Origin: a bacterium
Lineage (GTDB): Bacteria; Cyanobacteriota; Vampirovibrionia; Gastranaerophilales; Gastranaerophilaceae
DNA length: 37,427 nucleotides
Direction of reading: 5' to 3'
Assembly: GCA_017403285.1 (NCBI GenBank)
Contig: JAFQOI010000005.1
Coordinates: 1 to 37,427, forward strand
Position 1 is the stretch's first letter; the number at the start of each line of letters is the position of its first letter. Shown here piece after piece: positions 5,389 to 27,502 of the stretch. Under the pieces are notes generated by a model, which saw nothing but the letters and a program-made list of their open reading frames with translations, was not told the origin of the DNA and did not search any database. Position numbers and translations under genes: made by a program.

Positions 5389-6792
5389 ATGTCAATTCAA
5401 AGAATTGCTCTTAGTGCTGCAAATTTACAGCCAAGAGCGGATTATCGTGTTCAAAAAAGCGTTCAAAATCGTAATGTATCCGATTTTAATTGTGCAGAAA
5501 TGTCATCTGCTGCAAGTTTGGCCATCAGAAACAATTATATGAGTAATATCTCTTTTAAAGGGATAAACAATGATTCAGCAAATAACACTGTTGGATTAAA
5601 AAAATCAATCAAAGACTTAGAGGACATAAAAGGGAAAAGAGCACTAGTAAGAGTAGACATCAATGTTCCACTTGATGAGAATAAAAACGTTACAGATGAC
5701 ACAAGAATTCAAGCAATTCGTCCAACCATCGATTATTTGAAAGACAAAGGTGCAAAAATTGTATTAATGGCTCACTTGGGCAGACCAAAAGGACAAAGAA
5801 ACGAAGAATACTCATTAAAACCAGTCGCAGAGTATATGTCAGACCTTTTTGGAGAAGAAGTTGTGTTTATTCCTGATATAAAAGATGCACCAGAAATGGT
5901 AGCAAATTTAAAAGAAGGACAAATCGCACTACTTGAAAACATAAGATTTTACAAAGCAGAAGAAGCAAAAAATGATGATATGACTTTTGCAAAAGAACTT
6001 GCCCAATTGGGTGATTTTTATGTAAATGATGCATTTGGAGCAGCACATAGAAACCATACTTCAACTGCAAAATTAGCAGAAGTTTTAAAGCCTGCTGTTT
6101 CTGGATTATTAATGGAAAAGGAAATTAGATGTTTATCTCAAGCACTAGAAAATCCCGAAAGACCATTCACTGCAGTTGTTGGCGGTTCAAAAGTTTCATC
6201 TAAAATCGGGGTTTTAGAAAACTTATTAGATAAAGTTGACAATTTAATAATCGGTGGCGGAATGGCATACACATTTGTTAAAGCAAATGGTGGCGAAATT
6301 GGAAATTCATTATGCGAAGACGACCAAATTGATGTAGCAAGAGCAATAATGAAAAAAGCAGAAGAAAAAGGTGTAAACTTAATTTTCGATACCGATGTAT
6401 TAGCAACTGATGATTTTTCAGGAAATGGAACAACAAAAATAGTTAAAATAGATGAAATCCCAGAAGGATTTATGGGTGTAGATTCAGGAATTGAATCAAG
6501 AGAAAAATTTGCCAATGTATTAAAATCTTCAAAAACAATTCTAATGAATGGACCTGTTGGAGTATTTGAAAATCCTAAATTTTCAAAAGGGACTCAATCC
6601 GTTCTTGCTGCCATTGTTGAAGCAACAAAAAATGGAGCAACATCTGTAATTGGTGGTGGTGATTCTGTTGCCGCTGCAAAACAATTCCAAGATGCCGATG
6701 ATTTTACACATGTTTCAACTGGTGGTGGTGCTTCATTAGAATTTATTGAAGGGAAAGTCCTCCCAGGTGTTGATGCTTTGGATGATATTTAA
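5389..6792 (+). CDS. pgk: Phosphoglycerate kinase with N-terminal extension
   Basis: Catalyses 1,3-bisphosphoglycerate + ADP to 3-phosphoglycerate + ATP in glycolysis. At 467 aa it is about 70 longer than usual. The conserved protein starts near residue 68 (LKKSIKDLEDIKGKRALVRV). Family signatures are present: VDINVPLD, HLGRPKG, NDAFGAAHR, GGSKVSSKIGVL, MNGPVGVFE and GGGDSVAA near the C-terminus. Residues 1-67 are an extra polar segment ending in NISFKGIN. AGGAGG five bases before the ATG at 5389 makes this start firm, so the extension is translated. The same tag occurs on adenylate kinase and on a small protein at 27044-27502. A strong terminator follows. Confidence 0.97.
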   Translation: MSIQRIALSAANLQPRADYRVQKSVQNRNVSDFNCAEMSSAASLAIRNNYMSNISFKGINNDSANNTVGLKKSIKDLEDIKGKRALVRVDINVPLDENKNVTDDTRIQAIRPTIDYLKDKGAKIVLMAHLGRPKGQRNEEYSLKPVAEYMSDLFGEEVVFIPDIKDAPEMVANLKEGQIALLENIRFYKAEEAKNDDMTFAKELAQLGDFYVNDAFGAAHRNHTSTAKLAEVLKPAVSGLLMEKEIRCLSQALENPERPFTAVVGGSKVSSKIGVLENLLDKVDNLIIGGGMAYTFVKANGGEIGNSLCEDDQIDVARAIMKKAEEKGVNLIFDTDVLATDDFSGNGTTKIVKIDEIPEGFMGVDSGIESREKFANVLKSSKTILMNGPVGVFENPKFSKGTQSVLAAIVEATKNGATSVIGGGDSVAAAKQFQDADDFTHVSTGGGASLEFIEGKVLPGVDALDDI

Positions 6793-6857: not shown

Positions 6858-7577
6858 TTAAACTAGGTCTTCTTGGATACTTTCATCAATTTGTGCTTTA
6901 ACACCTTGTATATCCTTATTAGCATCAATGTTTACAACCTTATCGCCATAATATCTCACAAGCGTATCTCTTACTCCATTATAAACATCAATTCTAGTCT
7001 TTAATTTTTCAGGAGTATCATCTGCCCTATTTTGAACTTTTGCTCTTGATAGCATTCTTTCAAGAAGTTTTTCTTCATCAACTGACAATTGAATTACTTT
7101 AATTTTTGCATTATCAGTTTGATTTAATTCATCAATCATTTCTGCTTGTTCTTCTGTTCTTGGAAATCCATCTAAAATATAGCCTTTTTTACAATCATCT
7201 TGAGAAATTCTTCCAATTAATAATTTTTGGAATAATTCAGTTGGAACAAGTTTTCCACTATTCATATATTTTGCTGCTTCGATGCCCAACTCAGTACCAT
7301 TTTTAACTTCTTCTCTTAACAAGTCACCTGTTGATATATGAGCGATATCTAACTCTTCAGCAAGTTTTTCTGCTTGTGTGCCTTTTCCACTCGCAGGTGC
7401 ACCTAAGAAAATATAAATTGTTTTTTCTTTTAATTGTGGCTTTTTATCTTCTTGTGAAACTTTTCCACTAAAAGTTACAGTATCACAAGGCATTGAAAAA
7501 GAAACTCTTTGATTTTGTTTGGTGCCAAAAGAAAAATTATTTACACCTAGATTTGCACCAATTCTTGAAATTAACAT
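6858..7577 (-). CDS. adk: Adenylate kinase with N-terminal extension
   Basis: Converts ATP + AMP to two ADP. Walker A reads GAPASGKGT (about residues 60-68). Then follow HISTGDLLR, GYILDGFPRT (AMP-binding Arg) and the short LID, without zinc-binding Cys, ending in NRADDTPE. The AGGAG site eight bases before the ATG at 7577 selects MLISRIGANLG as the start, giving 239 aa; an upstream in-frame ATG at 7622 lacks a ribosome site. Normal short-LID enzymes begin about ten residues before Walker A, so residues 1-50 are extra. They are polar and contain NNFSFG and VTFSGK, resembling the tag on the convergent pgk product. The enzyme assignment is secure; the role of the extension is unknown. Confidence 0.96.
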   Translation of the reverse strand: MLISRIGANLGVNNFSFGTKQNQRVSFSMPCDTVTFSGKVSQEDKKPQLKEKTIYIFLGAPASGKGTQAEKLAEELDIAHISTGDLLREEVKNGTELGIEAAKYMNSGKLVPTELFQKLLIGRISQDDCKKGYILDGFPRTEEQAEMIDELNQTDNAKIKVIQLSVDEEKLLERMLSRAKVQNRADDTPEKLKTRIDVYNGVRDTLVRYYGDKVVNIDANKDIQGVKAQIDESIQEDLV

Positions 7578-7790
7578 AATACACTCTCCTAAATTGTTTT
7601 CGTTTGTATAAAATTCAAACAAAAAATATCTTGCGTTTTTTACATTCTACAATGTAAAGTACAAAAAATATATAAACAATAAATTTTTATTAAGTCATAA
7701 TTTAGAATGCAATATAATTTAGGTTGTACCAATATGTCTTTATGATAATGAAACTGGTGCACATAAAGATTTTTTGTAAAATATTGTAAA

Positions 7791-8559: not shown

Positions 8560-8636
8560 TGGCGTGCCTGGAGGGATTCGAACCCCCGACCTTTTGGTTC
8601 GTAGCCAAACACTCTATCCAGCTGAGCTACAGGCAC
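8560..8636 (-). tRNA. tRNA-Arg (anticodon ACG), CCA encoded
   Basis: The minus strand folds as a full cloverleaf. The acceptor stem is GTGCCTG/CAGGCAC, the D-arm contains AGCTCAGCTGGATAGAG, the anticodon stem TTTGG/CCAAA holds loop CTACGAA (anticodon ACG), and the T-arm contains GGTTCGAATCC. Discriminator G is followed by genomically encoded CCA (8562-8560). The wobble A of ACG is normally deaminated to inosine to read CGU, CGC and CGA. Confidence 0.97.
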
Positions 8637-8763: not shown

Positions 8764-9606
8764 ATGAAAAAGGTTAGTATAATACTACCAACATTCAATG
8801 GAGAAAAGTACATTGAAGAATCCATTAACAGTATTTTGCACCAGACATACAAAAACTGGGAACTAATAATTGTTAATGATGCCTCCAATGACAATACTCA
8901 AGATATTATCAACAAATTTGCGGAACAAAGTTTCAAAATAACAGTAATACAAAACGACAAAAACCTAAAACTTCCTGCAAGTTTAAATATAGGATTTAAA
9001 AAAGCAACAGGCGAATATTTCACTTGGACTTCAGATGACAATATATATAAAGAAAATGCTATAGAAAAAATGGTGAAATATTTAGACGAAAATCAAGAAA
9101 TTGATTTAGTCTCTTTTAACACCGACATCATAAACGAAAAAGGGGAAACGGAACGACAACTCAACGAAATATATGAAAACAGGAATACTTTACAACTAAC
9201 ACAGGGCTGTAATATTGGTGCTTGTTTTATGTACAGAAAAGAAATCGCGCAAGTTGTTGGACTTTATGACGAAACTATGTTTTATGCTGAAGACTATGAT
9301 TTCTGGTGTCGCATTGCTTTAAAGGGGAAAATCGCATATTCTGATGAAAATCTATACAAATACAGAATACATCCAAATAGTTTATCATCAACAAAAGTCC
9401 CTCAAATATGCGAAAAAATAAGAGAGATAAGACATTTATACACACAGGCTATTATGACAAAATTAAAACTATCAAAGAAAGAACAAGTAAACAGGCTATT
9501 AGATTTTTATTATAACGAAACTAGAGATTTCGAATGGTATAAAATGGCTAAAAACACTAGCAAACTTCATTGTTATTTATATAAAATAAAAAAGTTTTTT
9601 AAATAA
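8764..9606 (+). CDS. GT2 family glycosyltransferase
   Basis: A soluble inverting GT-A glycosyltransferase of 280 aa. Residues 1-100 carry the nucleotide-sugar half: VSIILPTFNGEKYIEESINSI, VNDASNDNTQDI, and the metal-binding motif TSDDN. The acceptor half contains NIGACFMYRKE and the catalytic-base region EDYDFWCRIALKG. The C-terminal tail is Lys-rich and may touch the membrane. The acceptor cannot be told from sequence; glycans of lipopolysaccharide or capsule type are usual. The ATG at 8764 fits the family start, but no Shine-Dalgarno is seen. The 3' end overlaps the convergent dltX-like gene by eight bases. Confidence 0.9.
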   Translation: MKKVSIILPTFNGEKYIEESINSILHQTYKNWELIIVNDASNDNTQDIINKFAEQSFKITVIQNDKNLKLPASLNIGFKKATGEYFTWTSDDNIYKENAIEKMVKYLDENQEIDLVSFNTDIINEKGETERQLNEIYENRNTLQLTQGCNIGACFMYRKEIAQVVGLYDETMFYAEDYDFWCRIALKGKIAYSDENLYKYRIHPNSLSSTKVPQICEKIREIRHLYTQAIMTKLKLSKKEQVNRLLDFYYNETRDFEWYKMAKNTSKLHCYLYKIKKFFK

Positions 9607-9745
9607 CCATTTCATATATAAATTGACCATTTCCTTCAAAGTAGATACAAATCAAAATCAACATTATCGCATATATTAGCACCTCAATATATGCGCCAAA
9701 TCTATTATGTACAATATTTTTTAACCTTTTTAATTTTTCAACCAT
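9599..9745 (-). CDS. dltX: DltX-like membrane microprotein, 48 aa
   Basis: A short gene at the end of the dlt-like operon. It reads MVEKLKRLKNIVHNRFGAYI, then one membrane helix (about residues 19-36, VLIYAIMLILICIYF), then EGNGQFIYEMVI. A basic N-terminus, one helix and a C-terminal FIY motif after a Gly match DltX, whose end is usually FIYNEF. In Gram-positive dlt systems DltX is needed for D-alanylation, and its terminal Tyr has been proposed as an acyl carrier; here that would be Y44. GGAGG lies about ten bases upstream and the ATG overlaps the dltD-like 3' end by 16 bases, so translational coupling is likely. In Gram-positive operons dltX usually comes first; here it is last. Identification rests on motif, size and context. 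Confidence 0.75.
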   Translation of the reverse strand: MVEKLKRLKNIVHNRFGAYIEVLIYAIMLILICIYFEGNGQFIYEMVI

Positions 9746-10614
9746 GGTTCAATTACCTCCGTTAATACATGAGAACCATATTCATAATTAAAATGACCTT
9801 GATCGTTATAACATTCTTTATCAAATTTACCAGACAAATCAAGAAAATCTATTCCGTTTTTAGCAGAATAATCTTTTATATATTCATAGGTTTGAATTGT
9901 TGGTTCTAATGGTTTTACACTTGGATTTGGCGGTATCCAAACAAAACGCAACCTTATACTATTCTTTTTACAATAAGAAGTTATTTTATTTAATGCAGAC
10001 ATATTCTTCTTCAAGTCTTCAAATTTGATTTTATATAAGAATTGCGCTCTTTCACTATTTAGCTTATCTTCTAATTCCTGTTGACTTAAAGACCCAAAAT
10101 ACAGTTCTCTACGTTGATTTTTAAATGGTCTATTTAATTTATTATCATTAAATAAATATGTAAATATAGTATTTCTTATAAGCAATTGAAGTCTATCTCT
10201 TTGAAAATAAGAAAATGGCTCATACCATTTTCTACGCCAAGGATTTGTTGGATCAGCAGCAAAATCATCATACATAGACAAAGCGGAATTAAATGCAATA
10301 ACAAGTTCTGAGCCTATTTGAATTTCTTTTGTATTAATCATACTCCACAAATCAGTTATAAGCCCACAATTTATACCTGCATTTATATAGCCACTATCAC
10401 TTTCTTCTGCTCTAAAAGATGAAATAGTAACAGAATTTCCAAAAAATACTTTATCCCAAACTTTTTCAGGATTATCTCTTCTAACTATTTCATAACTATT
10501 TAAAAAGACTTGCCCACTAGATAAAAAATATGGGGTCATAACTTTTTCTAGGATTTTATCCATAATCAAAAAAGTACTCATTATTAATATAAATATAAAA
10601 AGACTTTTCTTCAT
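9730..10614 (-). CDS. dltD: DltD-like SGNH acyltransferase/hydrolase
   Basis: A 294-aa protein with one N-terminal anchor (residues 4-22, SLFIFILIMSTFLIMDKI) and an extracytoplasmic SGNH-fold domain. The block I nucleophile is in FFGNSVTISSFR (S61); DltD normally reads GSS. The closing dyad is D271-x-x-H274 in NDQGHFNYEYGSH. DltD is the outer-face component that finishes D-alanyl transfer to teichoic acid. Here the acceptor must differ if the cell is Gram-negative, as the TolC-type protein suggests. The ATG overlaps the dltB-like stop by four bases, showing coupling. The catalytic Ser, Asp and His all appear intact, unlike in the partner acyltransferase. At 294 aa it is shorter than firmicute DltD (about 400). 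Confidence 0.8.
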   Translation of the reverse strand: MKKSLFIFILIMSTFLIMDKILEKVMTPYFLSSGQVFLNSYEIVRRDNPEKVWDKVFFGNSVTISSFRAEESDSGYINAGINCGLITDLWSMINTKEIQIGSELVIAFNSALSMYDDFAADPTNPWRRKWYEPFSYFQRDRLQLLIRNTIFTYLFNDNKLNRPFKNQRRELYFGSLSQQELEDKLNSERAQFLYKIKFEDLKKNMSALNKITSYCKKNSIRLRFVWIPPNPSVKPLEPTIQTYEYIKDYSAKNGIDFLDLSGKFDKECYNDQGHFNYEYGSHVLTEVIEPWLKN

Positions 10615-11756
10615 GGTAAAAATCCTTTCAATACAGAAACAACTTGCGTTTCATTCAAGAAAAATGTTATTGCCCCTATAGAGAAAAGGAAAGCAATAAT
10701 AAAACATCTTAAACAATAAACAAATTTGCTATGTGCATTTTTATTAAATGTCGTTTTAGAAATCAAGTTTTCAATTGCAATGAGGATACCCAAATAAATA
10801 CCACGAGAAATATCAAGTAAAGTAAATCCACGCCAAGCGCCCATTAAAAATAGTATTGTAAAAGCAACAAGCGCCATTTGATACTTATTTAGTCTTTTAT
10901 CTGCAATAGAAACAAAAACATGTTCTCTTAGCCAATCACCTAACGTAATATGCCATCTATGCCAGAATTGTGTAAATGTTGCCGATTTAATCGGCTTGTC
11001 AAAGTTTTCAGGAACTTTTATCCCAACAAAAGTACCCGTTGCAATTGCCATATCAGAATATCCAGAAAAGTCAACGTGTAAAAGAGCATAACATACAAAA
11101 ACAATCATAAAGCTTATACCAAAATTACCAGTTTGAGGAAGCAAATAATGCAACAACCACAACAGCCAAGGCATAATAACTAACTTCTTAAATAAACCTA
11201 CAACAAACCTTTTTCCGCACCAAAGCGCTTTATCCATATCAGGATATTGCGGATTTTCATAGCAAGCCATAAAATCTCTATATCTAAATATTGGACCTGC
11301 CGTTATTACAGGAAAGAACAGCAAAAAATTTGCATAAGGTATAAAGTTTATATGTTTTTTTCCATAGTAGACATAAAACAATGCATCTATTGCTTTTAAC
11401 ATATTAAATGCGAAACCAATCAATACGATAAAATGAGGCAAAACATCAGTAAATTTTGTCATTCTCATATATATTAGTGGCAGAATACACAATATACAGA
11501 AAACAACAAACAAATATTTTCTACATTTTTCAATTTTTTCCAAAATCAAAACAAACAAATAAGTAATGACTGTATATATAACATAAAATAGGGCAAGGCT
11601 CTTTGATACATACCCCAACAAAAACAAGTCAAAAACAATCAGATACGGAGCAAGATTAAAAGAATTAAACTTCTTTTTTAATATTATCCCTGAAAGAGTA
11701 TAAAGAATAGAAAAGGCAAGTATGATAAATAATGTATCTATCTTTATATACCACAT
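10611..11756 (-). CDS. dltB: DltB-like MBOAT membrane protein lacking the catalytic His
   Basis: A 381-aa membrane protein with about ten to eleven helices and MBOAT hallmarks: FFPVITAGPIFRYRDF (about 147-162), HVDFSGYSDMAIATG (227-241), PENFDKPIKS and FWHRWHITLGDWLREHVF (264-281), keeping H269. The family's second, catalytic His sits in MGxWHG. Here the site reads MGAWRG with R309, codon CGT at 10832-10830, and the following YGxxHG region reads RGIYLG. DltB passes the acyl group from DltC across the membrane. The family and pathway assignment is firm from fold and neighbours, but the usual His-based chemistry should be missing. It follows the dltC-like gene by two bases. Confidence 0.88.
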   Translation of the reverse strand: MWYIKIDTLFIILAFSILYTLSGIILKKKFNSFNLAPYLIVFDLFLLGYVSKSLALFYVIYTVITYLFVLILEKIEKCRKYLFVVFCILCILPLIYMRMTKFTDVLPHFIVLIGFAFNMLKAIDALFYVYYGKKHINFIPYANFLLFFPVITAGPIFRYRDFMACYENPQYPDMDKALWCGKRFVVGLFKKLVIMPWLLWLLHYLLPQTGNFGISFMIVFVCYALLHVDFSGYSDMAIATGTFVGIKVPENFDKPIKSATFTQFWHRWHITLGDWLREHVFVSIADKRLNKYQMALVAFTILFLMGAWRGFTLLDISRGIYLGILIAIENLISKTTFNKNAHSKFVYCLRCFIIAFLFSIGAITFFLNETQVVSVLKGFLP

Positions 11757-11758
11757 TG

Positions 11759-12019
11759 TTATGCCCTATTCTTTAATTTTTCTGAGACTAATATAGCTAT
11801 ATTATTTATCGTTTGCAAATTATGCATTAGAATATCTTCTTTTGTTATTTTTATATTAAAGTTTTCCTCAATAAAAAATACAACAGACATTGAATCCATA
11901 GAATCCAAATAGCCATACTTATATAAATTTAAATCATCATTAAAGTCTGTATCATTAGACTGTATTTTAGACTTATTAATTATATAGTTCCTAATATCAT
12001 CTTTTATTTTATCAGGCAT
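11759..12019 (-). CDS. dltC: DltC-like acyl carrier protein
   Basis: An 86-aa acidic carrier protein. The phosphopantetheine attachment serine is S40 in YGYLDSMDSM, followed by the usual hydrophobic helix (SVVFFIEENFNIKIT). It is charged as a thioester by the DltA-like ligase encoded immediately upstream, whose stop it overlaps by eight bases, and serves the DltB-like membrane protein downstream. Family members are about 80 aa. A carrier for another amino acid remains possible, given the altered ligase pocket. Confidence 0.9.
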   Translation of the reverse strand: MPDKIKDDIRNYIINKSKIQSNDTDFNDDLNLYKYGYLDSMDSMSVVFFIEENFNIKITKEDILMHNLQTINNIAILVSEKLKNRA

Positions 12020-13541
12020 TCTTTACCTCTTGTTTTCTTTTATCAAATTCTAATTTTAATTTAACTCTATCCATTTTTCCATTTGCTTTATAGAAAAGTT
12101 TTTTCATTGGAACCAAATGTGAAGGAAGCATAAAAGATGGAATATAATCCCTCAATTTAACATTGAAAGGATGAAGAGAAAATTCTTTATCTGTTTCAAT
12201 AAACAATATAATTTCTTCTTTTTCTGCTTCATAAACTGCTGCAGCATTAATAACTCCATCTATATTCATTGCTGCGTGTTCTATTTCACCAAGTTCTATG
12301 CGGTGCCCATGTTTTTTAATTTGAAAATCTTTTCTTGTACGAAAACAAAGTTCACCATACTCATTTATATAAGCATTATCACCAGTTTTATAAATTATTT
12401 CTTTTTCATTCAATGGATTAACAACAAATGCTTTTTTAGAATTTTCGGGATTATTCCAATATTTATTTGAAACAGTTGTTCCTGCCAAACAAAGTTCACC
12501 TTCTTCACCTATTCTAGCAAGAGTCCCATCTTCTTTAAACAAATACATTTTGAGATAATCCGAACACATGCCAGTAGGCAAAGAATCACTATCTTGAAAT
12601 TCTCTTTCAATGTCATAAAAACAGATAAATGATGTTTCAGAAGTACCATAAATATTTGTAAATTTAACATCAGGAAATTTATTTCTCCATATATTTAATT
12701 GTCTATTAGGCATTATTTCACCGGAGAACATAACATTTGTCAAATGAGGCAATTCAATATTATTAAGCGCACCTGAATTTGCAATATTAATAAGAACAGA
12801 TGGTACAGAAAACATAGAATTAACTTCTTTTTCTTTTATATATTCCAATAATTGATATGCATGCATTAAAAGAACATCTGGAACTATTAATAATTTAGCA
12901 CCGGCATATATTGAATAATACACATCTAAATTAGACATTTCATAATAAAATGGAGTTATACTTGCAATTGTTATATCAGAGTTAAAATGATACTTTTTAT
13001 CAACAAAGTCGACCCACTCTTTTATTCCTTTATCTGGCCTAATCGCCCCTTTTGGAATGCCAGTAGATCCTGAAGTATAAATTATATATGCATTATCCTC
13101 TTTCTTTATTTCAGATATAGTTTTATCTATTAGTTCCTTATCTTCTTCAACAGATAACAACTCCTCATATATCTTTACATCAACATTATCAAAAGATAAG
13201 TCTTTAAGAGATTCAAAAAGGTCTTTATCAGTAATAAAAACACAAGGTTTTAAACTATCTATAATTTTTTGAAGTCTATAAACAGGCATGTTTATATCAA
13301 TTGGAACATATGGTCTTGAACTATAACGAGCGCCCATAAATGAAGTAAGAGTTTTGTAATTTTTACCCAAAAAAATTACAACAGGACAATCATCATATTT
13401 TGACGTTAAAAGGTTTGTCGCTATTTTTCTAGATAAATCCCTATATTCTCTATATGTAATAGAATACTTTATATCTTCAATTGCGATTTTATCTGGAAAT
13501 TTATTGGCTGCTCTTTCTAATAACCATACAGCGGAATTCAT
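12012..13541 (-). CDS. dltA: DltA-like amino acid:carrier protein ligase
   Basis: An ANL-superfamily adenylation enzyme of 509 aa, the usual DltA length. Core motifs are complete: YTSGSTGIPKG (155-165), YGTSET (298-303), YKTGD (384-388), DFQIKKHGHRIELGEIE (405-421) and the catalytic Lys in NGKMDR (K489). DltA activates D-alanine as AMP ester and loads DltC. Two pocket positions differ: the motif usually reading FDxS is YEMS (E201), and the Cys normally in FCGE is Ser in FSGE (S273). In DltA these positions contact the amino group and methyl of D-alanine, so another substrate is possible. The start ATG follows the upstream stop directly (TAAATG). Confidence 0.88.
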   Translation of the reverse strand: MNSAVWLLERAANKFPDKIAIEDIKYSITYREYRDLSRKIATNLLTSKYDDCPVVIFLGKNYKTLTSFMGARYSSRPYVPIDINMPVYRLQKIIDSLKPCVFITDKDLFESLKDLSFDNVDVKIYEELLSVEEDKELIDKTISEIKKEDNAYIIYTSGSTGIPKGAIRPDKGIKEWVDFVDKKYHFNSDITIASITPFYYEMSNLDVYYSIYAGAKLLIVPDVLLMHAYQLLEYIKEKEVNSMFSVPSVLINIANSGALNNIELPHLTNVMFSGEIMPNRQLNIWRNKFPDVKFTNIYGTSETSFICFYDIEREFQDSDSLPTGMCSDYLKMYLFKEDGTLARIGEEGELCLAGTTVSNKYWNNPENSKKAFVVNPLNEKEIIYKTGDNAYINEYGELCFRTRKDFQIKKHGHRIELGEIEHAAMNIDGVINAAAVYEAEKEEIILFIETDKEFSLHPFNVKLRDYIPSFMLPSHLVPMKKLFYKANGKMDRVKLKLEFDKRKQEVKNA

Positions 13542-16500
13542 TTAACCTTGTTCTCCAAATACTATGTTTAATCTTTCTCTTGAACCAAATTTAGTAAAAG
13601 TTGTTATTCCATCTTTATATTCCGCTTTCCAATCAGAACTATCTGTTCCAGCAAATCCAGTGACAGATGCTTGCATCATTCCATCATCTAAGAACAACAA
13701 ACTAACACCTTTTTCATTAACCCTTATTTTAGCAGGAATATTAACTCTTATCAAATGCGGGTTATCTTTATTTTTATCAATAAATACGCTAACTTTTTTA
13801 TCAAGTCCAACATAAAGATTATTATCCTTTTTTCTCCAAACTGAAGAATCAGTAGAAACAACATCTTTTAAATTATGAGAAAATTCTATTTTAATTCCAG
13901 CAGCAGACTGTGCATTTTTGTCATACAAAGGGAACTTATTATCTTCTATATCTGGCGTTATCTCAATAACATTTCCGTTGACATTCAAATTAACCTTTAA
14001 ATTATATGCAGCAGCAATTGCCTTCATCATTTGGTCTTCTTTCACAAAATTATATTCAAATTTTTTTCTGTATTTTTCAAGATTATTCATAATTTGAATA
14101 GACAAATCCTTATTACGGTCATCAGGATGATGATAATTTAGCACCGGATAAGCATATTTCATTGCCACATTTACATTGTCTCTACTACAAGGTAACATTC
14201 CACCAGAACAAGGTATTGCCGATTGGACATTTTGAACAAGAATTGTTCTTTTTCCTTCATCAACGATAAAGAACGGATTTACTACCGCTGTTTCAGCAGC
14301 AATCCAGTTTGCGAATGCATGTTCTTTTGATTCAAAGAAAGACTCCCACAAAACTCCTTCATTAAACAATGTTCTATAAGAATCTTTTTCTGACAACCTT
14401 GTAACTGGTCCACCATGTTGATTAACACCAATCTTTCCTTTTATTCCAAAATACTTTAATGCATTAAAATGAGTTCTGATTTCATACTTTTCCCGTTCTT
14501 TTGAAGCATACCAACCAGAAAAATAATGCATTCCAAGATAGTAATTTTTTGATTTAGCGAAATCCATTTGTTCTTTATATTGATTTCTATAAGGGAAATA
14601 CACAGAATCAATTGGATATGGAAGGTCTATATCTTCATAGCCGACAACAACATCTAATTTTCCGTCTTTATTTATGTCTATAAGTCTTGGATTAGAAAAC
14701 AAACCAAATTTAAGATTGTTGTTTCCTTTTATATTCATTTCTTTTGTTTGAATATATCCCTCAAAACTGTACTCACCTGTTTTACTTCCTTTTAGTTTGG
14801 CAATATATCCATCTTGTGTGCCTAATATTACATCAGGATATCCATCTTTATTATAATCAACAACAAAAGGAGAAAGATATTTACCAAAATTCAAATCTGC
14901 ACATTGTCTTGACAATGCACGCATTTTATTATGCGAATAAATTAATCGTTTGCCTTCTTTTTCACCATAATAAATTAAAATAACACCACTATCAGAACCA
15001 ACAACAATATCCATAGTTCCATCTGCATTCAAATCCCCAATAGAAGGGAACGAACAACCTTGTATATCTGTTTTAATCAACAATTCTTTTTGTGCGAAAC
15101 TAAAATTCCCAAGCCCTTTAAAATAGTATATATTCCCATTTTTAGAACCAGAGATAATATCTAAAACATCATCTCCATCAACATCCAATAATTGTGGCGC
15201 AGAAAACTCTTCAACCGAAGCATCAAGTGGTTTTAACCGTTCCATAACCAATCTGCCGTCTTTTCCAGTAAATCCAAGATTTTTGAAATAATAAATTTTA
15301 CCATCAGAACTTCCAGTAAAAGCATCAAGCAAACCATCTTTATCATAATCAATAAAATGAGGATAAAATAGTGTTCTATTATTAATGTCAGAGGTAATAC
15401 CACTAGGCGTATTTTCCTTTGTTTTTAATTGAATCCATTTATCATCACTGGCAATATATGTCCCACCTCCAAATGGGTTTTCATATAAATTAATGTTGTA
15501 AGTTAAATCTTTTCGATTTTTAGCCTCATTTAAAATATATGCGGCAGTTTCTGTTCTTGTATTCCAAGTAAGAGCATTTCTTACCAAAGAAAATGAAGGG
15601 ATTTGATTATTTTCTTCAACAAGTTCTCCAAAATTTTTTAAACCATTTTCTTTAATCCCAGGAATATTTTCATAATGTAATGACCAACCCATAATTGGTG
15701 ATGCGTATGAACCAAAAACTCTTTGTATAGAAAAGCCATATATTTGCTTTGACACATAAGAAGCAAAGTATCCATATAACATTTGATTAAAACTTGCAGT
15801 TGTATTAGAAAAAGGTCCTTGTTCTTGTTTTGACTCTTTCAAAGAGAAAGAACTTTTAGAAAACTTGTTAGGCAATAAAGGATTTGTATAAAAAACCCTA
15901 CCTTTGCCATACTTATTTATTGTGTATATGGCTTGCCCTTTTGACTCTGCTAACACCTCTGCACTACTTGGAACAACGGCCATACCATAATCTTGTTTAA
16001 ACAAAAAATCTTTACTGGTATAGTCTTTATAAAATATAGAAAAATCTAAAATAAGTTCTTGAATTTGTCGAAACTCAATGTCAAACTTAGGGATATTTAT
16101 CTTGATAGGCGCAGATACTATTTTCTTATAATCCTTTGCGCCGATAAAATCTTTTGGGAAAATATCATATAAATTATTTGCAACAAAAACATATCCGCCT
16201 TTTTCAACAAATGAAATTATTTTTTCAATTAGTTTAGGATTATTATTTTTTTTAAGACTTTCATCTAAATATAAAACATCAAAATTATCAAAAGAAGGTA
16301 CGTCTTTTAAAAGGTTTATATTTGAAACATTTAAACCAATTGTTGTTGACTGCTTTAAATATTCTATCGTAGTTTCTGCCGTATAATTATCTTCATCCTC
16401 AATATGTAGAACAGCAGTATTTATATAATAACCATCACGACTTTTAACATATGAAACAACGTCATTAAATGACATTGTTTCATTTACTTTTATATTTCTA

Positions 16501-16595
16501 CATATATCTTGTTTCTTATTTAAAACATTAAAAGAAACACCACCAACAGTAATAAGAAATACAAGTATTAAAGTGAACAACTTTTTGTTTTTCAT
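13542..16595 (-). CDS. Anchored extracytoplasmic protein: FG-GAP/VCBS repeats in a deacetylase-like fold
   Basis: A 1017-aa protein whose ATG at 16595 (MKNKKLFTLILVFLITVGG) has AAGGG upstream and gives a signal or anchor helix at residues 4-25. Residues about 50-270 look like a flavodoxin/GATase-like alpha-beta domain (TAVLHIEDEDNY, VLYLDES, FVEKGGYVFVANN). Residues about 415-650 hold five Ca-binding repeats of D-x-D/N-x-D-G form (DYDKDGLLD, DVDGDDVLD, DLNADGTMD, DYNKDGYPD, DINKDGKLD). The flanks (WSLHYENIPGIKENG before, and GVNQHGGPVTRLS and NYHHPDD after) suggest a polysaccharide-deacetylase-like barrel interrupted by the repeats; this is an inference. It abuts the dltA-like gene, so a role on the same surface polymer is likely. 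Confidence 0.75.
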   Translation of the reverse strand: MKNKKLFTLILVFLITVGGVSFNVLNKKQDICRNIKVNETMSFNDVVSYVKSRDGYYINTAVLHIEDEDNYTAETTIEYLKQSTTIGLNVSNINLLKDVPSFDNFDVLYLDESLKKNNNPKLIEKIISFVEKGGYVFVANNLYDIFPKDFIGAKDYKKIVSAPIKINIPKFDIEFRQIQELILDFSIFYKDYTSKDFLFKQDYGMAVVPSSAEVLAESKGQAIYTINKYGKGRVFYTNPLLPNKFSKSSFSLKESKQEQGPFSNTTASFNQMLYGYFASYVSKQIYGFSIQRVFGSYASPIMGWSLHYENIPGIKENGLKNFGELVEENNQIPSFSLVRNALTWNTRTETAAYILNEAKNRKDLTYNINLYENPFGGGTYIASDDKWIQLKTKENTPSGITSDINNRTLFYPHFIDYDKDGLLDAFTGSSDGKIYYFKNLGFTGKDGRLVMERLKPLDASVEEFSAPQLLDVDGDDVLDIISGSKNGNIYYFKGLGNFSFAQKELLIKTDIQGCSFPSIGDLNADGTMDIVVGSDSGVILIYYGEKEGKRLIYSHNKMRALSRQCADLNFGKYLSPFVVDYNKDGYPDVILGTQDGYIAKLKGSKTGEYSFEGYIQTKEMNIKGNNNLKFGLFSNPRLIDINKDGKLDVVVGYEDIDLPYPIDSVYFPYRNQYKEQMDFAKSKNYYLGMHYFSGWYASKEREKYEIRTHFNALKYFGIKGKIGVNQHGGPVTRLSEKDSYRTLFNEGVLWESFFESKEHAFANWIAAETAVVNPFFIVDEGKRTILVQNVQSAIPCSGGMLPCSRDNVNVAMKYAYPVLNYHHPDDRNKDLSIQIMNNLEKYRKKFEYNFVKEDQMMKAIAAAYNLKVNLNVNGNVIEITPDIEDNKFPLYDKNAQSAAGIKIEFSHNLKDVVSTDSSVWRKKDNNLYVGLDKKVSVFIDKNKDNPHLIRVNIPAKIRVNEKGVSLLFLDDGMMQASVTGFAGTDSSDWKAEYKDGITTFTKFGSRERLNIVFGEQG

Positions 16596-16652: not shown

Positions 16653-17678
16653 TTATTCAAGGCTCTTCATATATACTTCTTCAATTAAAACAACAACTGT
16701 TGCTGCTATTGCTGGCGCAAAAACAACACCAATTAATCCCATATATTTTGCTGCAATAAATAAAAACAAATATATCAATAACGGATGTAAGTCCAAAAAC
16801 TTACTAAACACATAAGGTCTTACAAAATTATTCTCTACAAGTTGTGCAATAGCAAATATTATTGCAGTAAAAATCAAAATAACAGGACCTGATTTGTATA
16901 GAACAATCATACAAATTATAAAAGCAAGTGCAGGACCTACAACAGGAATAATATCAAGAACAGCAGTAATAAGACCTAAAACAATTGCATATTCACTTCT
17001 AATAATTAACAATCCAACTGTAACAATCAAACCAACACTAGCCATTGTAACCAATTGAGCAATAATATATCCACCACTTCTTTCCGCAATAGAAGATAAA
17101 ACTTGCGCAGTCTTTTTTCTCATTGGCACAGGGAACAATCTTAAAAAAGTATTTTTAACTTTTTCTCTATCTATCATAAAGTAATAAATTATAAGTATGG
17201 ATATTATGAAATAAACAAGAGCAGTCCCAATGTTTACCCCTGCATTATATATATCAGCAACAATCTTTGAAGTTGTCCCTGAAACAGAAGAAATAAGCCC
17301 ATTAATATCAATTTTATCAAGTGTTGCTTGATTAATAAAAGGAATAGAATATAAAAACTCTTTTATATTGTCTATAGACTGTGGTAATGACAGTGCAAAC
17401 GTTTTAATTTGATTCCCACTAATTATGACAACTGAAATAAAAAATGATAAAAAAATGAATAAAGAACCAAAAAGAACTATTGAACAAGCTGTCTTTCTTG
17501 AGAATTTTACCATCAATTTCTTAACCATTGGTTCTAATGAACAAGCTATTACAAAAGATGCAAAAAACATAATAGCAACGTCAGATATTTTAAATATAAA
17601 TATGATAAAAAGAATCGCCAAAATAAAGAATATGATGTTCTTTGCGGTTATATATTTAGGAAAGATATTTTCAAACAT
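16653..17678 (-). CDS. AI-2E family transporter
   Basis: A 341-aa membrane protein with seven to eight helices and the PF01594 pattern: paired N-terminal helices (IIFFILAILFIIFIFKI, VAIMFFASFVIACSLEP), a charged periplasmic loop (about 90-145), the core AERSGGYIIAQLVT and the signature LDIIPVVGPALA, then LVENNFVRPYVFSK. Members export small molecules or act as Na+/H+ antiporters; the autoinducer-2 link holds only for a few. AAGGAG precedes the ATG. It lies 57 bases upstream of the anchored repeat protein and may start the dlt-like operon. The substrate is unknown. Confidence 0.88.
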   Translation of the reverse strand: MFENIFPKYITAKNIIFFILAILFIIFIFKISDVAIMFFASFVIACSLEPMVKKLMVKFSRKTACSIVLFGSLFIFLSFFISVVIISGNQIKTFALSLPQSIDNIKEFLYSIPFINQATLDKIDINGLISSVSGTTSKIVADIYNAGVNIGTALVYFIISILIIYYFMIDREKVKNTFLRLFPVPMRKKTAQVLSSIAERSGGYIIAQLVTMASVGLIVTVGLLIIRSEYAIVLGLITAVLDIIPVVGPALAFIICMIVLYKSGPVILIFTAIIFAIAQLVENNFVRPYVFSKFLDLHPLLIYLFLFIAAKYMGLIGVVFAPAIAATVVVLIEEVYMKSLE

Positions 17679-17850: not shown

Positions 17851-20277
17851 ATGAAAAAGATTTTGACCGCACTGCTGGCTATATTAATAATGTTTTCGTT
17901 ATGTAATATAGAAGCAATAGCGATTACTGAATCAAAGAAAGCAGACGCTACTAAAGCAACAAAAAATGCAAAAACAATTGAACTCGCGTTTGTATTCGAC
18001 GGACCATCAGACAAAAACACAGAAGTATTGAAGATATTTCAAAAAACAATTGCAAAATCATTATTGCCGGACTTCAAAGCATCATTTCCAGAAGATTTAA
18101 TTTTTACCGGCGACTGGACAGAAGAAGGAGCTAATAAAGTTTCTGATAAAGCTTTGGCTTCAAGAGCAAAAATGGTTATTTCTTTAGGTTACATGTCTAG
18201 TAACCACTATTCTTCAATGCCAAACAAAACAAAAAAAGTTGTAACAATTGATCAATATGGATTAAGAGATTTTGGTGACAATTTCTTCAATCCAATACAA
18301 CAAACTGCAAATGACTTTGTTACATTCCAAAAACTTGCACCACAAATCCAAAAAACTGCTATCTTGATGAACGAAAGTTATTACAGAACTAACAAAGATT
18401 GGTCATCAAGAATTTCGAGTAAATTGCAAGAAAAAGGATGTTCTTTGGACTTTGTTGTAATTCCGGTAAACTCAAATGTAGAAGAGTCTTTAGCAAAATT
18501 ACCTGAAGATGTTGACTCTGTATTTGTTACACCATTGTATAACTTATCTACAGAACAAAGAAGAGAGTTATATCAAAAAATTAACGAAAGAAAACTTCCT
18601 TCTTTCTCATCAGTAGGAAGAGAAGATGTTGATTTAGGTGCTATGTTAGGTACATCTACATTTGATGTAGACAAAAAATTAGCAGAAGCAACTTCATTTA
18701 ATATCCATGGCGTTTTATACGGAAATGTAGTAAAAGAAGAAAAAATACCATTCTATGATGAAAAAGTAATTTTCTACAACTCAGATTCTGGAGAAGCAAT
18801 AGGTTACATGCCTCCATTGAGACTTTTAAATAATGCTGTAACTATCACACACAAAGAATTACCAGCATATGATTTAGGCTCACTTATAAACGCATTAGAT
18901 GAAAACAACTTGCACATCGAACGAAAGAAATATCTTGTATCTGCTGCTAGAAGATCACTCGCTGGTGCTTATGCAAAATATTTACCTACATTCAGAATGG
19001 ATTTTGGTTATCAAAAATATAACGATGACTACGCAAAATCGTATTCAGATGTTCCATTACACGTTGGTTTGTTCACTATGGCAATTGATCAGGTTATTTA
19101 TTCTCCTGACTTAGTAACAAACATCATTGTAAAACACAAAAAATTGAAATTTGATAAGGCAGAAGCAGCACTTACAAAGGCAAATATGGAATTCCAAGTT
19201 GCTAACTTATATGTAGAGGCATTAATGCTTGAAAACGTTATCAAAGTTCAAGAGGAATATGTAAAAGAAACAAAAGAAAACTTTGCAATTGCCAGAGTTA
19301 GAGAAAAAACAGGCAAATGTGGCTATGAAGAAGTTCTTCAATGGGCTGGTGAAGTTAGTGAAGCTGAAAAAAAATTGTTAGAAATTAAGGCTGAATACAG
19401 CAACATTAAAATTCATATCAGCAATCTTTTAAACCAAGACCAAAAATTGGATTTCGTATTCAAGCCATTAACAGCACACGATCCAAGTTTCTTTACATCT
19501 GATATAAACATTATCGACCACGTAAGAACACCTGAAAAACTTAATCAATTCACAGAAATGCTTGTTGAAAAAGTAATTTTCTTGTCACCAGAAACAACAA
19601 AACTAAAAGCAGCAATTGCAATGAAAAAGGCAGAAATTGCAAACTACGCACAAAAATTCATATTGCCAAGTGCTAAAATTTCTTTTGAATATGGTTCACA
19701 ATTTGATAGAAACTTACCATACGAAAACATTGGTCACCTACAGATGAGAGAAACATACTATGGAACTGGTGGAATGATGGGTTCACCTTGGTTGAACTTA
19801 GACAAAACATCAGGCAGAATTTTAGTTGCTGCACAATGGAAACCTATTGAAGGCGGACAAAAAATTGCTGAAATTGCAAGAGCAAAAGCAGAACTTGATG
19901 AACTTAAAAAATATATGGAACAAGTTCACATAGACTTAGAAATGAATGTTCGTTCAGTTATTAACCGTGCAATTGCAAAATATTTCACAATTGAAAAATC
20001 TTACAAATCAATGTTCGCTCAAGTAGAAAACTATCAAACAGTTAAACAAAAATATCTTCTTGGACAAGTTCCAGTAAGCCAACTTCATGATGCTCAAGGA
20101 CTGTACTTAGTTGCTAAATTGGATGCTTTAAACTCTCAATATAATTTCTTTAAAGAATTACTTTGGGTACAAAGGGGCTTATTGGTTGTCAACTGGGCTA
20201 ATGCTGATGAAGATGCCAAGAATTGGATTAAATCAATTCCGGAAATATTACCAGCAGAAGCAGACTTTACTCTATAG
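17851..20277 (+). CDS. Fusion of ABC substrate-binding-like domain and TolC-like outer-membrane protein
   Basis: An 808-aa exported protein. Residues 1-26 are a signal peptide (MKKILTALLAILIMFSLCNI). Residues about 45-330 resemble a periplasmic binding fold of the ABC_sub_bind type: IELAFVFDGPSD, AKMVISLGYMSS, KTAILMNESYYR, VDSVFVTPLYN. Residues about 350-790 resemble an outer-membrane efflux protein: long helices with repeated Ala/Glu/Leu patterns (KANMEFQVANLYVEALMLE, then IAEIARAKAELDELKKYM) and the half-repeat KQKYLLGQVPVSQLHDAQ typical of TolC. TolC-type trimers form export ducts. I know of no standard architecture joining these two domains. The GGGAGGG ribosome site is strong, and transcription ends at 20301-20326. 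Confidence 0.8.
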   Translation: MKKILTALLAILIMFSLCNIEAIAITESKKADATKATKNAKTIELAFVFDGPSDKNTEVLKIFQKTIAKSLLPDFKASFPEDLIFTGDWTEEGANKVSDKALASRAKMVISLGYMSSNHYSSMPNKTKKVVTIDQYGLRDFGDNFFNPIQQTANDFVTFQKLAPQIQKTAILMNESYYRTNKDWSSRISSKLQEKGCSLDFVVIPVNSNVEESLAKLPEDVDSVFVTPLYNLSTEQRRELYQKINERKLPSFSSVGREDVDLGAMLGTSTFDVDKKLAEATSFNIHGVLYGNVVKEEKIPFYDEKVIFYNSDSGEAIGYMPPLRLLNNAVTITHKELPAYDLGSLINALDENNLHIERKKYLVSAARRSLAGAYAKYLPTFRMDFGYQKYNDDYAKSYSDVPLHVGLFTMAIDQVIYSPDLVTNIIVKHKKLKFDKAEAALTKANMEFQVANLYVEALMLENVIKVQEEYVKETKENFAIARVREKTGKCGYEEVLQWAGEVSEAEKKLLEIKAEYSNIKIHISNLLNQDQKLDFVFKPLTAHDPSFFTSDINIIDHVRTPEKLNQFTEMLVEKVIFLSPETTKLKAAIAMKKAEIANYAQKFILPSAKISFEYGSQFDRNLPYENIGHLQMRETYYGTGGMMGSPWLNLDKTSGRILVAAQWKPIEGGQKIAEIARAKAELDELKKYMEQVHIDLEMNVRSVINRAIAKYFTIEKSYKSMFAQVENYQTVKQKYLLGQVPVSQLHDAQGLYLVAKLDALNSQYNFFKELLWVQRGLLVVNWANADEDAKNWIKSIPEILPAEADFTL

Positions 20278-27043: not shown

Positions 27044-27502
27044 CTATGCTAATTGTCCAATACCTTGCCACATTGCTTTCAGTTCATCAACTGATTTTGT
27101 TGAAAGGTTTTTAACGCTATATTGTCTATCAGGGAATAAACGATTTGCTATTCCTGACATATCAAATGATATTTCAGTACTACCAATTCTATCTAATTTT
27201 TCGATTACATCTGCTGTAAATTTTTTACCGAAAGAAACGATATTATTCATTCTTGTTTTAAATGCTTCATTAAAACTATTTATGCCACCGACAACAGCGC
27301 TTGCAAATAGTTTTCCTCTTTGCATAACGCTGACTTTTTCAGCCGCTTTTTTTGCGCTTTGAAATACGTCTGCTTGAATTACATTTCCTTTGAAGCTAAC
27401 GCCAAATGGATTTGTTGATAATTTATTAGTATTTGCTGTATTTTGTTGTGTATTTGCTTGCAATGCTTTAGTTGTGTGTAAACTAATTCTCCCCAGTTGC
27501 AT
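27044..27502 (-). CDS. Uncharacterised 152-aa protein with SFKG N-terminal tag
   Basis: Not recognised. Residues 1-33 are polar and Asn/Thr/Gln-rich, followed by GVSFKGN (about 34-40), the same motif as in the extended pgk product and close to that in adk. The remainder is helical and amphipathic (VFQSAKKAAEKVSVMQRGKL, FNEAFKTRMNNIVSF) with no membrane helix. AAAGG is about twelve bases before the ATG. It is the third tagged protein in this window. Confidence 0.7.
   Translation of the reverse strand: MQLGRISLHTTKALQANTQQNTANTNKLSTNPFGVSFKGNVIQADVFQSAKKAAEKVSVMQRGKLFASAVVGGINSFNEAFKTRMNNIVSFGKKFTADVIEKLDRIGSTEISFDMSGIANRLFPDRQYSVKNLSTKSVDELKAMWQGIGQLA

Follow-up and report, generated by a model that had tools for sequence, protein, structure and literature searches.

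A dlt-like operon with non-canonical parts points to a probable carrier-fed acyl-transfer machine in a diderm member of the Gastranaerophilales

The window analysed here, a 37,427-nucleotide stretch of a metagenome-assembled genome (MAG) from the Gastranaerophilales, gut bacteria related to the cyanobacteria (G000, contig C91; 2.23 Mb, 96.7% complete, 3.4% contamination), harbors an operon reminiscent of the dlt operon. It comprises six minus-strand genes, running from position 16595 to 9599 and encoding, in this order, an FG-GAP protein, a ligase, a carrier protein, a membrane-bound O-acyltransferase (MBOAT), an SGNH-like protein and a microprotein. These genes and the permease gene lying upstream of them are as follows:

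13542-16595, minus strand: membrane-anchored FG-GAP protein (1017 amino acids; Pfam FG-GAP_3, E=6e-20, in 3 stretches; hydrophobic N-terminus)
12012-13541, minus strand: DltA-like adenylation ligase, AMP-forming (509 amino acids; AMP-binding, E=3e-53)
11759-12019, minus strand: DltC-like acyl carrier protein (86 amino acids; PP-binding, E=2.5e-6)
10611-11756, minus strand: DltB-like MBOAT (381 amino acids; TIGR04091, E=3e-48; PDB 6bug, E=2e-30)
9730-10614, minus strand: SGNH-like protein at the DltD position (294 amino acids; N-terminal anchor; FGNSVT and DQGHFN motifs)
9599-9745, minus strand: DltX-like membrane microprotein (48 amino acids; ribosome-binding site CGGAGGT; one transmembrane segment; C-terminus GQFIYEMVI)
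16653-17678, minus strand: AI-2E-type permease (Pfam, E=3e-49), directly upstream of the operon across a 57-base gap

The FG-GAP gene abuts the ligase gene, and a gap of 2 bases separates the carrier and MBOAT genes; the remaining junctions are overlaps of 8 (ligase/carrier), 4 (MBOAT/SGNH-like) and 16 bases (SGNH-like/microprotein). An earlier note on this DNA had described DltA-, DltC-, DltB-, DltD- and DltX-like genes linked by these overlaps, in the order A-C-B-D-X and following a large anchored repeat protein; the open reading frames (ORFs) lie exactly so, and Pfam identifies the repeats as FG-GAP. The six-gene order and the 8-, 4- and 16-base overlaps are identical in a second carrier, another species of the same genus (G014, locus L048; syntenic record CALUUK010000004.1), with identities to the window of 62-63% for the FG-GAP protein, 71% for the ligase, 59% for the carrier protein, 77% for the MBOAT, 73-76% for the SGNH-like protein and 67% for the microprotein. 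The recurrence of the block, overlaps included, in a second species indicates that the operon is real and constrained. Nucleotide differences between the two loci fall mostly at third codon positions, and in the last 24 codons of the microprotein gene 12 nucleotide changes result in a single amino-acid change, whereas random placement of 12 changes yielded a mean of 8.7 and a minimum of 4 amino-acid changes in 20,000 simulations. Together, the third-position bias and this substitution test indicate that the genes, including that of the microprotein, are constrained at the protein level. Promoter and terminator scans of the locus returned signals no better than chance.

The five Dlt-like proteins were compared with curated family models, using as controls a canonical Enterococcus dlt operon, which passes the curated cut-offs for DltA to DltD, and DltX controls, which pass as well. 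All five proteins score under the curated Dlt cut-offs or are unmatched, and the description of the locus as a complete dlt operon is consequently not supported in the sense of family membership. Profile searches, as proposed in the earlier note, did confirm the MBOAT, AMP-binding and PP-binding assignments, but returned no DltD or DltX family match. The MBOAT scores 165 bits (147 in the second species) against the DltB equivalog model TIGR04091, under its cut-off of 375, yet this model is its sole NCBIfam match. On the inferred MBOAT tree it groups, on a long branch, with canonical DltB and apart from the AlgI/PatA-type proteins (ultrafast bootstrap [UFBoot] 98), and it is the sole component of the operon that groups with its true Dlt counterpart. 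Like DltB, it carries no fused C-terminal shuttle tail and ends in KGFLP. Most other MBOATs of the class end in a fused FIYFxF, and the other MBOAT matches in the Gastranaerophilales are mostly proteins of 465-520 amino acids with such a tail.

In the operon the FxY motif is instead supplied in trans by the microprotein, whose FIYEMV sequence, the same in both species, keeps F1 and Y3 of the FxYxxF motif that serves as an acyl-Tyr shuttle in DltX and PatA (PMC12148441). Tyr44 of the microprotein is, on the strength of this motif, a putative acyl-shuttle Tyr. The terminal DltX-like ORF proposed earlier goes beyond a fortuitous reading frame, being backed by a ribosome-binding site, a transmembrane segment, the substitution test and an L048 orthologue, but it shows no match to the DltX family PF12459 at E-values up to 10 (controls, 57 bits). 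The SGNH-like protein likewise has no match to the DltD models PF04914 and TIGR04092 (control, 419 and 483 bits), and its hhalign comparison with canonical DltD gave 0.3%. It presents weak SGNH/GDSL matches, to NF047474 (E=2.7e-4, for the L048 orthologue) and to PDB 3p94 (E=0.0097), as well as a weak hhalign match to proteins encoded beside AlgI-type MBOATs (E=3.7e-5 over 55 columns), and both species keep Ser61 (FG[NS]SVT) and the DQGH motif. Judged by these comparisons, the protein at the DltD position is a different SGNH-like protein and not DltD. Because neither protein matches a Dlt profile, the names DltD and DltX rest here on position, motifs and architecture.

The genomic context of the operon is in keeping with a two-membrane envelope, as the earlier note had supposed. 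LpxC is encoded by both carrier genomes and by two further congeners, and lipid A genes have been reported in the Gastranaerophilales by a survey cautioning that the envelope is not settled by sequence alone (PMC4040986). The TagF-type glycerophosphate polymerase (PF04464) was not found in either carrier genome, both of which are incomplete MAGs, and lipoteichoic acid synthase was not searched for. The presence of LpxC and the lack of a TagF-type polymerase support a host with two membranes and no wall teichoic acid, and the latter lends support to the suggestion that the acceptor is something else.

Taken together, a ligase, a carrier protein, a tail-less MBOAT, an FxY microprotein and an anchored SGNH-like protein suggest that acyl groups delivered by the carrier are relayed across the membrane, and the linkage of carrier and ligase is as expected for a carrier-fed MBOAT. 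The reading that we favor, with a probability of about 0.58, is that of a carrier-fed transmembrane acyl-transfer machine with Dlt architecture and non-canonical parts, operating in a diderm of the lipopolysaccharide (LPS) type. The system is probably not a D-alanine system, and probably transfers another group onto another surface molecule. This reading draws on gene content, order, conservation, motifs, relationships and envelope genes; from these we infer the chemistry of each step as well as what is transferred and onto what.

The strongest alternative arises from the MBOAT itself. In a phmmer alignment to Streptococcus thermophilus DltB (6bug), His269 falls on His289 and Arg309 on His336, a residue described as invariant (PMC11035591) and whose equivalent is required in both PatA and DltB (PMC12148441). 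Across a 40-sequence MBOAT alignment this column holds His in 38 sequences and Arg in 2, both of them orthologues from this operon, and a larger, partly redundant MBOAT set agrees. An assembly error was considered as the source of Arg309 and ruled out, since the genome of the second species also encodes Arg. The MBOAT could hence be a dead pseudoenzyme serving as scaffold or regulator, and the operon could have a function other than transmembrane acyl transfer. The precedent would be mammalian HHATL, the only other case that we met of a replaced invariant MBOAT His, which carries Leu at this position and is regarded as a non-acyltransferase regulator; a His-to-Leu change in Gup1 likewise abolishes its phenotype (PMC5831804). 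HHATL, however, is eukaryotic and works without carrier, ligase or shuttle partner. Against a dead enzyme, the operon retains His269, the Ser of the carrier, the Tyr of the shuttle and the motifs of the A-domain, and none of the other five proteins is as well conserved as the MBOAT, which is unusual for drift after loss of function. We regard a dead MBOAT as unlikely on balance, even though it fares better than the other alternatives.

A second alternative is ordinary D-alanylation, in which a diverged but functional Dlt system would add D-alanine (D-Ala) to LPS or another surface polymer. The architecture is the same, and Dlt-type genes for which such a role has been put forward occur in other LPS-bearing cells, namely dltBAC/pbpG in Dickeya dadantii and dra in Bordetella pertussis, which we liken to the present operon by description and not by sequence. 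D. dadantii dltB mutants lose polymyxin resistance (PMC3544676), and the dra locus attaches D-Ala to a component of the outer membrane, according to work as cited in PMC4448142. The ligase speaks on both sides. Its best NCBIfam subfamily is the DltA subfamily PRK04813 (E=7e-83, under the cut-off), but against the DltA equivalog TIGR01734 it scores 273 bits (240 in the second species), well under the cut-off of 559.85 and the 716 bits of the control. It shares 24-27% identity with canonical DltA and 37% with a non-Dlt ligase of its own genome, and on an unrooted tree of 12 sequences it sides with that ligase and a Paenibacillus ligase, the branch separating canonical DltA receiving a UFBoot of 100. 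By sequence, then, the ligase is closer to a non-Dlt ligase family than to DltA. The gene for the related ligase of the same genome is clustered with genes for two carrier proteins and an SDR (contig C111; L050, 1136-6503), and a similarly composed ligase/carrier/SDR cluster lies on a Paenibacillus megaplasmid (L061, 4855-10643).

The catalytic motifs of the A-domain are intact, and its pocket, read at the ten positions standard for A-domains as mapped by motif, has the sequence EMLFMSIFIK in both species, where canonical DltA has DLM[VI]LCTVAK. The two differ at 9 of 10 positions, with Glu for Asp at the amino-binding position, Ser for Cys, and mostly bulkier residues elsewhere. Retention of an acidic residue at the amino-binding position of a bulkier pocket suggests that the substrate is a small, probably amino-bearing acid, and likely not D-Ala. 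Given this pocket, identical in both carriers, the placement of the ligase outside canonical DltA and the Arg that replaces the invariant His of the MBOAT, we find D-alanylation improbable, somewhat more so than a dead MBOAT.

The carrier protein keeps the phosphopantetheine Ser in an alignable YLDSM context, but reaches only 25 bits against the dltC model TIGR01688 (cut-off 52), its nearest NCBIfam model being the OlsHI carrier (42 bits against a cut-off of 130). That affinity, together with the location of the closest ligases in carrier/SDR clusters, could indicate that ligase and carrier form a small aminoacyl-carrier biosynthetic pathway, akin to those of ornithine-lipid or natural-product clusters, whose product the MBOAT-SGNH pair would O-acylate, but the operon holds no other biosynthetic enzyme and its gene set stops at the microprotein, beyond which a GT2 gene lies on the opposite strand, and we consider this very unlikely.

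Under the favored acyl-transfer reading, the A-domain protein would activate a small, probably amino-bearing acid, likely not D-Ala, and load it on the phosphopantetheine arm of the carrier. The MBOAT, relying on His269 and Arg309 where a His/His pair is usual, would accept the thioester at the cytoplasmic face and acylate the microprotein on Tyr44 at the outer face. From the microprotein the group would move on to Ser61 of the SGNH-like protein, and this protein would finally esterify an acceptor in the periplasm or at the surface, which may be a polysaccharide or the FG-GAP protein encoded alongside. A more specific version, in which an active, acyl-Tyr-forming MBOAT uses Arg (for instance, stabilising the shuttle Tyr phenolate) and the remaining His, and the system moves an aminoacyl group other than D-Ala from the carrier to a surface acceptor hitherto undescribed in Melainabacteria, is tentative and rather doubtful as a whole. 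Several observations weigh against the favored reading. The Arg309 substitution may abolish transfer, and the sixth residue of the shuttle motif is Val, not Phe, in both species. The SGNH assignment is weak, and the AlphaFold prediction for this protein, computed from a two-sequence alignment, is unusable (mean pLDDT 41.6). Furthermore, the system is confined to two genomes among those searched, and its acceptor is hypothetical.

The FG-GAP protein, encoded by the first gene of the operon, was met only together with the operon. It combines an N-terminal transmembrane anchor with central FG-GAP repeats, and its 63% identical orthologue occupies the same place in L048. It is predicted to be extracytoplasmic and a possible partner of the system, and may be the acceptor or bind the acceptor. 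An AlphaFold prediction from a two-sequence alignment had a mean pLDDT of 31.3. Sequence searches of Pfam, NCBIfam and the PDB lent no support to the deacetylase likeness once suggested for this protein, and the idea that it contains a polysaccharide-deacetylase domain was discarded.

The operon shares with the dltXABCD operon of Bacillota a five-part plan consisting of ligase, carrier, tail-less MBOAT, anchored protein at the SGNH position and single-pass microprotein with FIY near its end. It differs from dltXABCD in its A-C-B-D-X order, its A-domain pocket, the His336-to-Arg change, an SGNH-like protein that is not DltD, the failure of its parts to reach the curated models, and a diderm host without TagF-type polymerase. 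The proposed relay from MBOAT to shuttle Tyr to SGNH protein resembles that of PatA/PatB and AlgI/AlgJ-X (PMC12148441), systems in whose MBOAT neighbours the weak similarity to the SGNH-like protein was found. PatA/AlgI-type MBOATs, however, carry the motif fused at their own C-terminus and use acyl-CoA, with neither carrier nor ligase, whereas the operon described here has both and its MBOAT has no tail. Dlt-like genes in Gram-negatives are already known; the novelty lies in the lineage that carries them, in parts of mixed origin, in an FG-GAP partner that is conserved and in the exchange of His for Arg. In the literature surveyed, the Dlt pathway is the only one described in which acylation is fed by a carrier and uses a separate shuttle microprotein. 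If the favored reading is correct, the Dlt layout would constitute a plan of general use for the export of activated (amino)acids, and the system would also provide a test of whether the MBOAT His is truly indispensable. A lone dltB was observed on a Ligilactobacillus murinus plasmid (L089, 3926-5113), where it adjoins a bactofencin-type bacteriocin gene and probably confers immunity.

Searches across related genomes located the operon in 2 of 41 congeners, so that its presence in a second species stands beside its absence from the other 39 congeners searched. The ligase orthologue is found in the same number of congeners (2/41), a third genome having only paralogues of 33-38% identity, while the FG-GAP orthologue is present in 2 of 240 genomes of the class and the DltB-type MBOAT in 2 of 382, these being the two carriers. 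In three other phyla, 398, 395 and 388 genomes yielded no match of comparable score, in searches that were run without a positive control and leave room for carriers elsewhere. A search of genome contigs turned up only the second species and AlgI-type MBOATs, and viral contigs searched with the MBOAT and FG-GAP proteins revealed no further carriers. An empty insertion site was looked for in congeners and not found, the AI-2E gene having other neighbours there. The system is rare, and was presumably gained once in the genus.

Both carriers share the same flanks, with TolC-type and AI-2E genes on one side of the operon and the GT2 gene and a tRNA-Arg(ACG) on the other. The AI-2E permease is a conserved neighbour and probably co-transcribed, but its membership in the system is only putative, and congeners carry the permease gene without the operon. 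The TolC-type gene (window 17851-20277) appears fusion-like, with a match to the substrate-binding protein model NF041285 (E=1.9e-4) at residues 156-328, which precede the outer membrane efflux domain; in L048 (1226-3636) its frame is broken into two ORFs, possibly through a frameshift or an assembly error. A (V/I)(S/T)F(K/S)G-like motif (ISFKG, VTFSG, VSFKG) was observed in N-terminal extensions of a number of proteins that are not related to one another, phosphoglycerate kinase and adenylate kinase among them (window 5389-6792, 6858-7622 and 27044-27502; L049, 13406-16399; L050, 11060-12073), and could be a lineage-specific sorting tag. The tRNA-Arg(ACG) (window 8560-8636; L048, 12882-12958) adjoins the GT2 gene in both carriers, and past it gene content diverges, with phage-like genes in L048, which suggests an integration hot spot.

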